Origin: Chloroflexota bacterium
Lineage (GTDB): Bacteria; Chloroflexota; Anaerolineae; Aggregatilineales; Phototrophicaceae
NCBI GenBank assembly: GCA_028873975.1
Contig: JAPPMO010000101.1
Coordinates: 115,083-179,082, forward strand
Direction of reading: 5' to 3'
DNA: 64,000 nucleotides
The position numbers were made by a program, and so were the translations under genes. A model generated the notes under the pieces. The model was not told the origin of the DNA. It searched no databases and was given only the letters and a program-made list of their open reading frames with translations. The stretch's first letter is position 1. Each line of letters starts with the position of its first letter. Shown here in pieces: positions 8,492 through 43,625 of this stretch.

Positions 8492-9318
8492 TCTTCGGTC
8501 ATTTCCTGCGCGATCTGTACAAGCGCCTGCCCGAGTGGGACAGGTCTTCTCGGCTCTCGCTCTATTTGGCAGTCATTCTCCTCGTCCTGTTGCTGCTCGC
8601 CGGCTTTTTGGGTCCAGAAGAGATCAGATTGCCGAGTCGCTTTGGCGCCTTTGCTTTGCTCTTGACGCTGCAATTGTTGTTCTTTTGGGGCAATCGCCGC
8701 GCTATTTCGCCTTATCACGAAGCCCAGCAGCACTATGTCCGCGGCGAATATGAATCCGCGCGTGATTTGCTCGAGCTGATCCCGGATACCCAGCGAGGGT
8801 CTGTTGACGCTCTGGCGCTCTTGGGCAATTGTTACCGGCAGTTGGGACAATTGGACAAAAGCCGAGCGGCGATTAATCGGGCATTGGAATTAAAGCCGGA
8901 TTATCATTACGCGCTTTACGCCGCCGGCAAGTTAAGCCTGGTCGGCGGGGAATACCATGATGCCAGAGCTTGTTTTGAAGGCGCCTTGGCAGCAGGGACG
9001 CCAGACTTGGTTCATTTTGATTTGGGCCAAGTTTGCTATTACCTGGGCAGCCCCGACGCGGAATCACATCTCCGCAAGTTCAAAGCCGCGTCGCGCGACG
9101 AGCCGGCCAAAGCGATTATGGCGACATATTATCTTTTGGATATCAGCAAAGCGGGGGCTTGGGCGCCGCTGTTGACCCCAGAAGCCTCCGCTTATTGGCT
9201 GGACGAAGCCAAGCGATATCAGCAAACGGAATATGGCAAACGCTTGCACGAAGACATCGAAGGAATTCAAAAACTGATGCAGCCCCAAGAAGCAAAAGCG
9301 GACGCTCTCCTCGACTAA
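8488..9318 (+). CDS. Membrane-anchored TPR protein 3
   Basis: A 276-residue protein with two N-terminal membrane helices (LSLYLAVILLVLLLLAGFLG and FGAFALLLTLQLLFFWG) followed by TPR repeats (HYVRGEYESARDLLELIPDT, LGNCYRQLGQLDKSRAAINR, KLSLVGGEYHDARACFEGAL). The ATG overlaps the preceding TGA (ATGA). This is the last gene of the TPR trio. After it comes a 105-bp stretch with no gene leading into the ileS leader ORF, so this is probably the end of the transcription unit that starts at the GNAT/alaX genes. Confidence 0.82.
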   Translation: MIFGHFLRDLYKRLPEWDRSSRLSLYLAVILLVLLLLAGFLGPEEIRLPSRFGAFALLLTLQLLFFWGNRRAISPYHEAQQHYVRGEYESARDLLELIPDTQRGSVDALALLGNCYRQLGQLDKSRAAINRALELKPDYHYALYAAGKLSLVGGEYHDARACFEGALAAGTPDLVHFDLGQVCYYLGSPDAESHLRKFKAASRDEPAKAIMATYYLLDISKAGAWAPLLTPEASAYWLDEAKRYQQTEYGKRLHEDIEGIQKLMQPQEAKADALLD

Positions 9319-9423
9319 ACCTGCCACGCATCGCCCGAACAGACGAAGTATTTCACCCTATCGAAATCGCCAGCGGTAAGCCATAATTTCTTCGTTATTC
9401 GCAGCCCAAGAGGAGGTGGAAAC

Positions 9424-9483
9424 GTGGTGTCGCTGCGCGTAGTGCTCGCACCGCGGGTCATTGCCATAGTGATGCGAACATAG
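9424..9483 (+). CDS. Putative ileS leader peptide (19 codons, rich in Val/Leu/Ile)
   Basis: A short ORF starting GTG-GTG with AGGAGG 7 nt upstream (9411-9416), a stronger ribosome site than most genes here. The product MVSLRVVLAPRVIAIVMRT is 19 residues, of which nine are Val, Leu or Ile, with two Ile codons (ATT 9460, ATA 9466) close together near its end. Codons 15-19 form the left arm of a 13-bp hairpin whose right arm lies directly before ileS. This is the layout of leader-peptide attenuators, in which stalling at the codon of the scarce amino acid opens the downstream structure. The ORF and hairpin are seen directly; the regulatory role is inferred. Confidence 0.6.
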   Translation: MVSLRVVLAPRVIAIVMRT

Positions 9484-9528
9484 GGCTAGTAGTCCGATTC
9501 TTTGCAAGTCGTCGATTCGTATCACTAT
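9466..9528 (+). promoter_or_regulatory. Leader hairpin preceding ileS (candidate attenuator)
   Basis: ATAGTGATGCGAA (9466-9478) pairs with TTCGTATCACTAT (9516-9528) over 13 base pairs with one G-U wobble and no bulge, enclosing a 37-nt loop. The loop contains the leader-ORF stop (TAG 9481-9483) and a smaller stem (GGGCT/AGTCC, 9483-9495). The right arm ends 3 nt before GGAGA, the likely ileS ribosome site. A ribosome paused at the leader Ile codons would cover the left arm and free the ileS start region; one that finishes the peptide would let the hairpin form. There is no T-run, so a translational mechanism fits better than transcription termination. Confidence 0.6.
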
Positions 9529-9547
9529 CATGGAGAGAAAAGTCGTC

Positions 9548-12500
9548 ATGTTTAGGGCAGTAAACTCGAAGATCAATAGCGAGAGCATCAACAAACTCGA
9601 ACAGAGGCAATTGGATTTCTGGCGCTTCAACCGCGTATTTGAGCGCACCACCGAAGGGCGCGAAGATGCTCCTCGATATGTATTTTATGAAGGACCGCCG
9701 ACGGCGAACGGCAAGCCGGCCAGCCATCACGTTTTGGCGCGGGCTTTCAAGGATATGTTCCCGCGCTACAAGGTGATGAATGGATATTATTGCCTGCGGC
9801 GGGGAGGATGGGATACGCACGGCCTGCCGGTAGAAATCGCGGTCGAAAGGGAGCTCGGCTTCGACAACAAGAGCCAGATTGAAGAATATGGCATCGCGAA
9901 ATTCAACGAACGGTGCCGTTCCACCGTTTTCCGCCACATCATCGAATGGGAAAAGTTCACTGAGCGCATCGCATTCTGGGTGAACATAGACGACGCCTAT
10001 GTGACATTCTCGAATGAATACATTGAAAGCGTCTGGTGGATCCTCAAGGAGTTCTGGAACAAGGGCTTGCTCTATCGCGGCTACAAAGTCGTGCCATACA
10101 GCCCCACCTCCGGCACGCCCTTGAGCAGCCACGAGGTTTCGCTCGGCTACAAGACCATCGTTGATCCCAGCATATTTGTACGTTTTCCGCTCAAGGACCA
10201 GCCGGGTGTCTATCTGCTGGCTTGGACGACCACGCCTTGGACCTTGCCGGCCAATGCCGCGCTGGCGGTTGGCGAGGACGTTGACTATGTGCAAGTTGCC
10301 GGACCTGCCTCGGATGGCGAAGGCGCTGAGCAGCTCATCCTGGCCGAAGCGCTCATGGAAAAGGTACTGGACGGAGACATCAATTACAGAGTGGTCCGGC
10401 GGCTCAAGGGCAGGGACATGCTAGGCTGGCGCTATCATCCGCTCTATACATTCTTGCCCGTGGAAAAGGATTACGCCTATGTGGCGCCTGCGGACTACGT
10501 GAGCACGGCTGACGGTACAGGCATTGTGCATACCGCGCCGGCTTATGGCGTGGACGACCTGGAAACGGGAAGAAAACACGACTTGCCGGTTCTGATCACG
10601 GTTGACGAGACCGGGTGCTTTGTTGATGCCTGCGCCAATTTCCGAGGGATGTGGTTCAAAGATGCCGACAAGGAAATTATCGCGGATCTGGTCGAACGCG
10701 GCTTGATGTACCGCAACGAGAAATACGAGCATACTTATCCCCACAACTGGCGCGATGATACGCCGCTGATGTACTTCGCGCGCGAGACCTGGTTCATCGA
10801 CACGCTGAAATACAAACAGACTATGATTGATCTCAATCAGACCATCAACTGGGTGCCCGAACACCTGAAGGATGGCCGCTTTGGCAACTGGCTTGATGAT
10901 CTCAAGGAGTGGTCCTTGGGGCGGGAGCGCTATTGGGGCACGCCCTTGCCGGTCTGGGTTGACGACGAAACCGGGGAAATGCTCTGCGTTGGCAGCGTGG
11001 CGGAATTAAGCGAACTGGCCGGGGAAGACTTGAGCGAGCTGGATTTGCATAGACCCTATGTCGACGAAGTCAGTTTCGACAATCCCAGCGGCCAAGGCGG
11101 CGCCATGCGCCGCGTGCCGGAAGTGATCGACGTCTGGTTCGACAGTGGAGCGATGCAGGTAGCGCAGTGGGCTTATCCACAGAAGAACAGGGATTTGCTT
11201 GAAGAACAGCATCCGGCGGATTACATCTGTGAAGCCGTCGACCAAACGCGCGGCTGGTTCTATAGCCTGCACGCCATCGGCGCCATGTTGTTCGATTCAG
11301 TCGCCTTCAAAAACGTCATCTCGCTTGGGCACATCCTCGACGAAAAAGGGCAAAAAATGTCGACGAGCAAGGGCAATGTCGTCGACCCCTGGGAGGTGCT
11401 GGAAGAAGCGGGGGCAGATGCCTTTCGCTGGTACCTCTATACCTCTGGACCGCCGGGCGAACCGCGTCGTTTTTCCAAAAACCTGGTGAGCGAAGTCATT
11501 AAGAAGTTTTGGTCCACCCTGTGGAATACCTACAGCTTCTTCGTCACTTACGCCAACATCGACTCATGGACGCCGGCGATGAAGGCGCCCCCGCCTGCCG
11601 ATCGGGAATTGCTGGATCGCTGGGTTTTGGCGGAATTGCACAGCCTGATCAAGACCGTGACCGATGCCTATGAGAACTACGATGCTGTTGCCGCGACGCG
11701 CCCCGTGGAAGAGTTTGTAGAGCGATTGAGCAATTGGTACGTTCGGCTGAGCCGTGAACGGTTCTGGAAGAGCGATGTAGACGCGAGCAAACGCGCGGCT
11801 TACGCCACTTTGTACGAGGTGCTGACAACCTTGGCGAAATTGCTGGCGCCGACGATGCCCTTCTTGAGCGAAGAGCTGTATCGCAATCTGGTTGGCGAAC
11901 AAGACGGCTCTCCGGCAGACAGCGTGCATTTGTCCGCCTGGCCGAATTGCGATGAAACGCTGATCGTCGACGAGCTCATATCGGAAATGGCGCTGGTGCA
12001 GCGCTTGGTGAGCTTGGGATTGTCGGCGCGCAACGCAGCGCAAATAGGCGTTCGGCAGCCTTTAGCGGGGGGACGATTCGCGACTCGCGATGTCGCGGAG
12101 TCGGAGACAATTGAGCGTTATGCAGAGTTGATCAGGAGCGAGTTGAATTTGAAAGACATCCGGGTCATGGGCGCGGACGATGTGGGTCGATTCGCGGCGA
12201 CCAACGTCTACAGCCTCAATCCATTGCCGCGTTTCCTGGGTCCGAAATTCGGCAAGGGTTTCAAAGCGCTGCAGTCGGCGCTCAAGTTCGGTGAACAGGA
12301 CTATGTGCGACCCTTTGCCGAGCGTCTGCTAGCGGGGGAGGACATCGCCGTCGAGCTCGACGGGGAGACCTATGACATCGCCAATGCCGAATGCGAGGTT
12401 AAGGTCACGGTCGAGACGCCGGAAGGCGCAGTTGAAGACGGCGGCTATATGGTGGTCCTGGATACGCGTTTGTCCTCCGACCTGGTGGAAGAAGGACTGG

Positions 12501-12751
12501 CGCGAGAATTGGTCAGACGGATCCAGAACCTGCGCAAGGTCGCGGATTTTGAATTGGACGACCGGATCAGCATTGTCTATTGTGATGCGTCGGAGGCCAT
12601 TGATGCTGTTATGCAACTCTTCAGCGGTTATATCAGCCAAGAGACCTTGGCAGACGATTTGCGGCCAGGGACTCCCTCCGGCGATTTCGTCAGCGAAAGC
12701 GTAGAAATCAAAGGTGAAACGCTGACAATCGCCGTAAGATTGTCCAGTTGA
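9548..12751 (+). CDS. ileS: Isoleucyl-tRNA synthetase, type-2-like, with altered HIGH motif
   Basis: A class I synthetase of 1,067 residues that charges tRNA-Ile in the cytosol. The start MFRAVNSKIN matches the family and GGAGA lies upstream; an ATG at 9530 would add six residues. GPPTANG is followed by ASHH (bases 9719-9730) where HIGH is expected, so positions 1 and 3 of the motif are changed (H to A, G to H). KMSTS replaces KMSKS (about residue 603). GGWDTHGLPVE, SSHEVSLGY and DVWFDSGA are typical. The CP1 segment PYSPTSGTPL lacks the two Cys of zinc-binding versions. Length and the SKGNVVDP ending of the KMSKS loop fit the eukaryote-like type 2 group. It is preceded by a putative leader-peptide attenuator. 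Confidence 0.95.
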   Translation: MFRAVNSKINSESINKLEQRQLDFWRFNRVFERTTEGREDAPRYVFYEGPPTANGKPASHHVLARAFKDMFPRYKVMNGYYCLRRGGWDTHGLPVEIAVERELGFDNKSQIEEYGIAKFNERCRSTVFRHIIEWEKFTERIAFWVNIDDAYVTFSNEYIESVWWILKEFWNKGLLYRGYKVVPYSPTSGTPLSSHEVSLGYKTIVDPSIFVRFPLKDQPGVYLLAWTTTPWTLPANAALAVGEDVDYVQVAGPASDGEGAEQLILAEALMEKVLDGDINYRVVRRLKGRDMLGWRYHPLYTFLPVEKDYAYVAPADYVSTADGTGIVHTAPAYGVDDLETGRKHDLPVLITVDETGCFVDACANFRGMWFKDADKEIIADLVERGLMYRNEKYEHTYPHNWRDDTPLMYFARETWFIDTLKYKQTMIDLNQTINWVPEHLKDGRFGNWLDDLKEWSLGRERYWGTPLPVWVDDETGEMLCVGSVAELSELAGEDLSELDLHRPYVDEVSFDNPSGQGGAMRRVPEVIDVWFDSGAMQVAQWAYPQKNRDLLEEQHPADYICEAVDQTRGWFYSLHAIGAMLFDSVAFKNVISLGHILDEKGQKMSTSKGNVVDPWEVLEEAGADAFRWYLYTSGPPGEPRRFSKNLVSEVIKKFWSTLWNTYSFFVTYANIDSWTPAMKAPPPADRELLDRWVLAELHSLIKTVTDAYENYDAVAATRPVEEFVERLSNWYVRLSRERFWKSDVDASKRAAYATLYEVLTTLAKLLAPTMPFLSEELYRNLVGEQDGSPADSVHLSAWPNCDETLIVDELISEMALVQRLVSLGLSARNAAQIGVRQPLAGGRFATRDVAESETIERYAELIRSELNLKDIRVMGADDVGRFAATNVYSLNPLPRFLGPKFGKGFKALQSALKFGEQDYVRPFAERLLAGEDIAVELDGETYDIANAECEVKVTVETPEGAVEDGGYMVVLDTRLSSDLVEEGLARELVRRIQNLRKVADFELDDRISIVYCDASEAIDAVMQLFSGYISQETLADDLRPGTPSGDFVSESVEIKGETLTIAVRLSS

Positions 12752-43552: not shown

Positions 43553-43625
43553 GGTGGATGTAGCTCAATGGCAGAGCGCCTGATTGTGGTTCAGGTGGTT
43601 GAGGGTTCGAGTCCCTTCATCCACC
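43553..43625 (+). tRNA. tRNA-His (anticodon GTG)
   Basis: A complete cloverleaf: acceptor GTGGATG (43554-43560) pairs with CATCCAC (43618-43624), the D-arm is TAGCTCAATGGCAGAGC, and the anticodon stem CCTGA/TCAGG carries loop TTGTGGT, giving anticodon GTG. The T-arm is GAGGG-TTCGAGT-CCCTT (one wobble). The base before the acceptor is G at 43553, the identity element G-1, opposite discriminator C73 at 43625. The following CACC is not CCA, so the CCA end must be added enzymatically. Confidence 0.96.

Follow-up and report, generated by a model that had tools for sequence, protein, structure and literature searches.

The region upstream of ileS, the gene for isoleucyl-tRNA synthetase, raises the question of whether a short open reading frame and a hairpin located there adjust synthetase production to the supply of charged tRNA-Ile. 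The stretch of DNA analyzed here, referred to as the window, comprises 64,000 nucleotides (contig positions 115083-179082) of the 4.46-Mb genome of a Chloroflexota bacterium, and an earlier note made from its sequence alone had proposed a translational attenuator for ileS. Comparison with related genomes largely supports that interpretation, and we consider it likely that ileS is controlled by a translational leader-peptide attenuator which senses the charging of tRNA-Ile at a single codon. The features discussed are listed in Table 1.

The 19-codon leader ORF and its Shine-Dalgarno (SD) sequence could be read directly as claimed, with an AGGAGG core at 9411-9416 lying 7 nt upstream of the leader GTG at 9424. 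Two Ile codons had been pointed out near the end of the leader, and both are present in the window, but only ATT is conserved. A role for the second in-frame codon (ATA, 9466-9468) was dropped because ATA is not conserved across the order loci. The CATAAT motif further upstream is the likely promoter -10 element of the leader/ileS transcript; every one of the 28 same-genus loci with a leader has a [CT]ATAAT site 29-49 nt upstream of the SD core, and some have a second such site. The ileS gene itself most likely starts at ATG 9548 and not at 9530, where the mechanical ORF call begins, because in several same-genus relatives the frame is interrupted by stops shortly before the conserved MFR start.

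Table 1. Coordinates of the features at the ileS leader locus, numbered from the first nucleotide of the window
Feature	Position	Strand	Basis
CATAAT, likely promoter -10 for the leader/ileS transcript	9382..9387	+	
Leader SD, AGGAGGTG	9411..9418	+	Direct reading; GGAGG invariant in 28 same-genus sequences
Hairpin 1, 5' arm (CGTGGTGT), holds the leader start codon	9423..9430	+	RNAalifold, 28 sequences
Leader ORF, GTG start, 19 codons, stop TAG at 9481-9483, peptide VVSLRVVLAPRVIAIVMRT	9424..9483	+	
Hairpin 1, 3' arm (GCACCGCG), over leader codons 9-11, just 5' of the Ile codon	9448..9455	+	
Ile codon ATT, codon 13, conserved, putatively regulatory	9460..9462	+	Ile in 31/31 genus representatives
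Hairpin 2, left arm (ATAGTGATGCGAA)	9466..9478	+	Direct reading, permutation test, within-genus covariation
Hairpin 2, right arm (TTCGTATCACTAT), ending 3 nt 5' of the ileS SD	9516..9528	+	
GGAG, ileS SD	9532..9535	+	Direct reading and alignment
ileS (isoleucyl-tRNA synthetase), start moved from 9530 to 9548	9548..12751	+	PF00133 match; relatives' stops

Conservation in close relatives, which the earlier note had named as a check, was examined in the same genus. A full ileS match was obtained in 33 of 34 genomes, that of the window included; in the remaining genome (G019) the sole hit was a weak one, to a region of another synthetase. Of the 33 upstream regions, 28 have kept the ORF, the stem and the Ile codon, which lies at codon 11-13 of the ORF, and conserved among these 28 leaders were GGAGG, the CGTGG..CCGCG arms and ATT or ATC. 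The five loci lacking a leader (L022, L026, L030, L033 and L034) have retained CATAAT in a much shorter 5' region. In a tree built from the first 270 nt of ileS they form a single clade with a support of 0.996, which indicates that the leader was lost once, and these five genomes amount to a natural knock-out.

The 13-bp stem described previously, here called hairpin 2, is present and exceeds chance expectation. It includes one G-U pair and is the longest stem with at most one G-U in positions 9411-9547; none of 500 dinucleotide shuffles of this region exceeded 11 bp, and when the 64-kb window was cut into 467 tiles of 137 nt each, only one of them reached 13 bp. The right arm indeed ends just before the ileS ribosome site. 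Folding of the whole 5' region gave a z of -2.10, with 4 of 200 shuffles being equally stable. RNAalifold analysis of the 28 same-genus sequences recovered hairpin 2 together with a second helix, hairpin 1, and found changes on both sides in 5 of 22 pairs. Within the genus, 92.7% of cells in the 20-pair structure and 99.1% of those in hairpin 1 pair. The covariation score was 0.223 compared to 0.137 (sd 0.011) after shuffling, a value not reached in any of 500 shuffles. Two of the five covariation measures were ordinary: for both-side-changed pairs 68 of 500 shuffles did as well, and for additional pair types 91 did.

Across genera, covariation between the arms was evaluated by partner permutation, in which the left arm of each of 31 genera (one representative each) was paired with the right arms of other genera in 20000 permutations; these statistics ignore kinship, and the genera are not independent samples. 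Hairpin 2 had an energy of -22.61 kcal/mol with its own partner and -17.30 (sd 0.62) with foreign ones, and hairpin 1 had -16.56 and -12.05 (sd 0.55), respectively; for neither helix was any of the 20000 permutations as low. By genus median, the own partner in hairpin 2 fell within the best 5% in 9 of 31 genera and within the best 10% in 13, and with so few genera individually in the best 5% the signal is collective rather than one carried by each genus. When hairpin 2 was split, the apical part gave z values of -6.8 to -7.5 and the pairing of the Ile-codon region with the SD and spacer gave -2.3 to -3.3 (matched or undercut by 2 to 54 of 4000 permutations), compared to -0.9 to +1.8 for three control pairings. 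The leader start codon is wholly paired by hairpin 1 in 25 of 31 genera, the hairpin 2 duplex contacts ileS SD bases in 26, and hairpin 2 ends at most 8 nt from the ileS SD or beyond it in 29. A helix located at the Ile codon therefore has covariation support both between genera and within the genus, in agreement with the expectation set out in the earlier note.

The distribution of the leader was surveyed in 118 ileS upstream regions of the same order, comprising the window and 117 others. The sample takes in part of 144 genomes with a match and is counted in eight families, with family f6 left out. Leaders were called by a rule based only on a strong SD and a start codon, and thus blind to Ile. 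An SD-led ORF so defined was found in 86 of the 118 regions (f1 68/77, f2 1/7, f3 8/15, f4 5/5, f5 0/1, f7 0/8 and f8 4/5) and was missing from 32; the same arrangement is thus seen in further genera and families of the order. Three more leaders outside the SD rule (L216, L218 and L140) were recognized by eye and are excluded from the counts. No stop interrupts frame 0 over 9 codons in any of the 86 leaders, whereas frames +1 and +2 are open over this length in 49 and 78, respectively, and ATT occurs at codons 9-15 in frame 0 in 79 leaders, in frame +1 in 2 and in frame +2 in 9. An in-frame ATT or ATC at codons 8-15, coding for the amino acid that the ileS product handles, was present in 82 of 86 leaders (79 ATT and 3 ATC). 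Its position differs by lineage (codon 9, 11, 12, 13 or 14) and is always in frame, and the peptides vary widely yet retain Ile, as in MATWHLPAQGPIGEPADA, MAVGELLTPRVIVGLLRIR and MVVRRERWLTSRVIASLI (first codon written as M). With one representative per genus, the codon was ATT in 30 genera and ATC in one.

The leader stop lies a median of 8 codons beyond the Ile codon over the 82 loci (9 and 23 in the other frames), and again 8 when counted by genus (13 and 14 in the other frames). The distance from the Ile codon to the ileS ATG ranged from 58 to 110 nt with a median of 84, and seven of the 82 leaders extend as far as the ileS start or past it. The leader had been described as rich in Val, Leu and Ile; for Ile this did not hold beyond the anchor codon, with Ile making up 27 of the 578 other leader residues, and there is a single regulatory codon rather than a run. 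All four leaders lacking an in-frame Ile belong to one f8 genus (L137, L139, L142 and L146), which has a conserved SD-led ORF with ATT nearby but out of frame and in which, by eye, the leader SD can form pairs with a segment immediately 5' of the ileS SD. Among the Ile codons in the N-terminal portion of ileS at the fetched loci, ATC outnumbers ATT by 213 to 84, whereas the leader Ile codon is nearly always ATT; pairing explains only some cases.

A search with the genus model, run with stricter filters under which weak matches may be lost, returned a match in 31 of 61 genomes, one in each, always at ileS and with none elsewhere at E<=1. The idea that the genome holds a whole family of leaders of this type was dropped, as the model matches at ileS only. 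Likewise, with gene starts chosen by rule, short ORFs preceded by an SD of at least 5 were not found within 230 nt upstream of the leuA-like, ilvB-like, thrS, serS, proS, hisS-like and metG loci.

Comparison of these loci revealed an SD-led ORF with one fixed Ile codon and hairpin 1 inside the ORF, and a hairpin 2 that joins the Ile-codon region and the bases following it to bases immediately 5' of the ileS SD and in part within it. In the attenuator that we propose, ribosomes would pass ATT and leave when tRNA-Ile is well charged, whereupon hairpin 2 would close over the ileS initiation region and synthesis of the enzyme would be low. Under a shortage of charged tRNA-Ile, a ribosome would stall with ATT in its A site, and its front edge (about +12 nt) would keep the SD-proximal half of hairpin 2, with the pairs between the Ile region and the SD, from forming, leading to more ileS translation. 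Hairpin 1 would fold again once the ribosome has moved on and would probably set an interval between successive leader initiations. With a footprint taken as +0 to +12 from the A-site codon, the stalled ribosome covers a median of 46% of the left-arm paired bases (range 29-75%), namely those nearest the SD. The claim that a paused ribosome would cover the entire left arm was therefore too strong under this assumed footprint.

Two simulations addressed the release of the ileS site. In the first, the gain in the probability of the SD being unpaired was 0.020 compared to 0.048 in controls with a shuffled middle (p 0.68), so that SD release in this form found no support. The second calculation, the cost of opening the ileS site under three site definitions, was used instead and fared only partly better. 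A ribosome at the Ile codon lowered this cost on average by 2.34, 3.53 and 3.55 kcal/mol, compared to 1.21, 2.57 and 2.55 kcal/mol in shuffled controls (p 0.026, 0.13 and 0.15), and the gain over the control was clear in only one of the three definitions. A ribosome at the leader start raised the cost by 1.67, 1.23 and 1.46 kcal/mol, and the difference between the two ribosome positions had a p of about 2e-4. For the window itself, the cost fell from 19.5 to 11.5 kcal/mol with a ribosome at the Ile codon (middle definition). Altogether, the folding models are equivocal and compatible with the mechanism.

Several observations weigh against the attenuator. Ribosomes passing along the seven leaders that run to or over the ileS start would open hairpin 2 themselves, the putative sensor is a single Ile codon, and the 32 order loci without a rule-defined leader and the four leaders of the f8 genus fall outside the scheme. 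A broader reading, which we advance tentatively and rate at slightly below an even chance, is that of a hitherto undescribed, order-wide regulator in which a single codon specific for AUU and not AUC, in an ORF of 9-20 codons, does the whole job of a T-box. Hairpin 1 would govern the leader start and hairpin 2 that of ileS, and ribosomes at the leader start and at the Ile codon would push the ileS site in opposite directions. This raises the question of how a single codon can suffice as a sensor, given that it is nearly always AUU although AUC is the commoner Ile codon.

Among the alternatives, a sensor consisting of RNA only, a shrunken T-box relative that binds tRNA-Ile with ATT as the specifier triplet and needs no leader translation, appears very unlikely. 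T-boxes upstream of ileS are common in relatives of the same class and phylum, with the Rfam T-box family (RF00230) detected at 8 of 14 scanned loci of other orders, and the T-box core of one such ileS locus (L152), GGGTGGTACCGCGGGTCATT, resembles the window's GTGGT..ACCGCGGGTCATT (9424-9462), where ATT is nearly invariant; chance or descent may account for the resemblance. However, RF00230 was found at 0 of 6 same-order loci and gave no match at 9200-9700 of the window up to E 10. The only match to any Rfam family in that interval was a chance-level eukaryotic snoRNA on the other strand (E 1.8), and the scan led us to reject a T-box or other Rfam family at the leader site. Additionally, the core GGTGGNACCGCG occurs within 350 nt of ileS at 29 of 63 Chloroflexota loci of other orders and at 0 of 118 in this order; for the 19 other-order loci in which no start codon was located, the start was set 150 nt from the end. 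The SD, start codon and frame of the leader are kept despite changes in length, and an untranslated sensor would need none of them.

The genome of the window has three T-box matches (L001, L002 and L003), two over the cut-off and one below, and the genes that follow look, by eye, like valS, trpE and pheS, so this cell uses T-boxes elsewhere. Given these matches and the contrasting core frequencies, the leader has probably replaced a T-box upstream of ileS in this order. The ileS T-boxes of Actinobacteria are described as translational (PMC1262725), and the one in Dehalococcoides, of the Chloroflexi, as being of the transcriptional type (PMC2494555). These elements serve the same gene and presumably respond to the same signal as the window leader, but the T-box RNA binds tRNA directly, whereas in the window element a reading frame is conserved and Rfam detects no T-box. 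If the attenuator reading is correct, a T-box and a translating ribosome serve the same gene in one phylum, and the order of replacement could be traced.

An arrest peptide, in which the nascent chain (..PRxI) would stall the ribosome on a small molecule or drug rather than at an empty A site, is likewise very improbable. Nascent chains of 9-14 codons can act on the ribosome, and the Ile codon lies 9-14 codons from the start. Arg occupies position -2 from the Ile in 24 of 31 genera, with four synonymous codons in use, and position -3 holds Pro in 19. However, both positions fall within the 3' arm of hairpin 1 and face the start codon, and the preference may thus stem from RNA pairing; the remaining peptide is highly variable, and family f4, with ATG starts, has Gly-Pro or Gly-Ser in these positions. 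Translational attenuation of the ermC type shares with our proposal the release of the downstream SD by a ribosome that has stalled within a leader ORF; it differs from the ileS leader in its drug-dependent arrest peptide, its resistance gene and its arrangement of arms.

The leader might instead be a constitutive translation aid feeding ribosomes to ileS by coupling or reinitiation, as in the "antenna" of Korolev et al. 2016 (PMC4833913), a reading to which we assign a very small probability. The leader SD is very strong and some leaders do reach the ileS start. Most, however, end well upstream of it, co-evolution maintains the intervening hairpin, and such an aid does not require a fixed Ile codon.

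Transcription attenuation coupled to leader translation, whether intrinsic or Rho-dependent, is the least probable of all: a leader ORF with a hairpin is the classical layout and Rho is compatible with the sequence, but the ileS SD rather than a U run follows hairpin 2, only 4 of 82 loci have a T run of at least 5 in the stretch from the Ile codon to the ileS SD, and the terminator hairpin with U run and competing antiterminator of the classical attenuator was not found. Known leader-peptide attenuators of synthetase genes, such as those of leuS and trpS in Streptomyces and of pheST in gamma-proteobacteria (PMC1262725), likewise place a leader peptide before a synthetase gene; they stop transcription at a U-run terminator, a layout the ileS leader lacks.

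The B. subtilis anti-TRAP (rtpA) leader peptide was reportedly described by Chen & Yanofsky in 2004. In that system the leader-peptide coding region tunes translation initiation of the next gene to uncharged tRNA (PMC4027176), as it would in our proposal. The rtpA leader uses Trp codons and regulates anti-TRAP, whereas the window has one Ile codon, a synthetase gene and two covarying helices, and the sequences are unrelated. In the actinobacterial LEU element of leuA, the SD of the gene that follows is paired with the regulatory codons of the leader peptide, and mutations in the S. coelicolor leader are reported not to have fitted classical attenuation (PMC1262725). Pairing of the regulatory codon region with a downstream SD is common to both systems; the LEU element differs from the ileS leader in its run of Leu codons, its pseudoknot, its biosynthetic gene and its phylum. 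An ileS leader peptide in Chloroflexota, or an attenuator of this sort for the gene or the phylum, was not found in the open-licence literature, and the present locus would, if the reading is correct, provide a leader-peptide translational attenuator for ileS.

Two minor observations were made alongside these analyses. Two genomes of other orders (G213 and G269) each encode two different IleS-like proteins, and the window contains a tRNA gene at 43554-43625 on the + strand.
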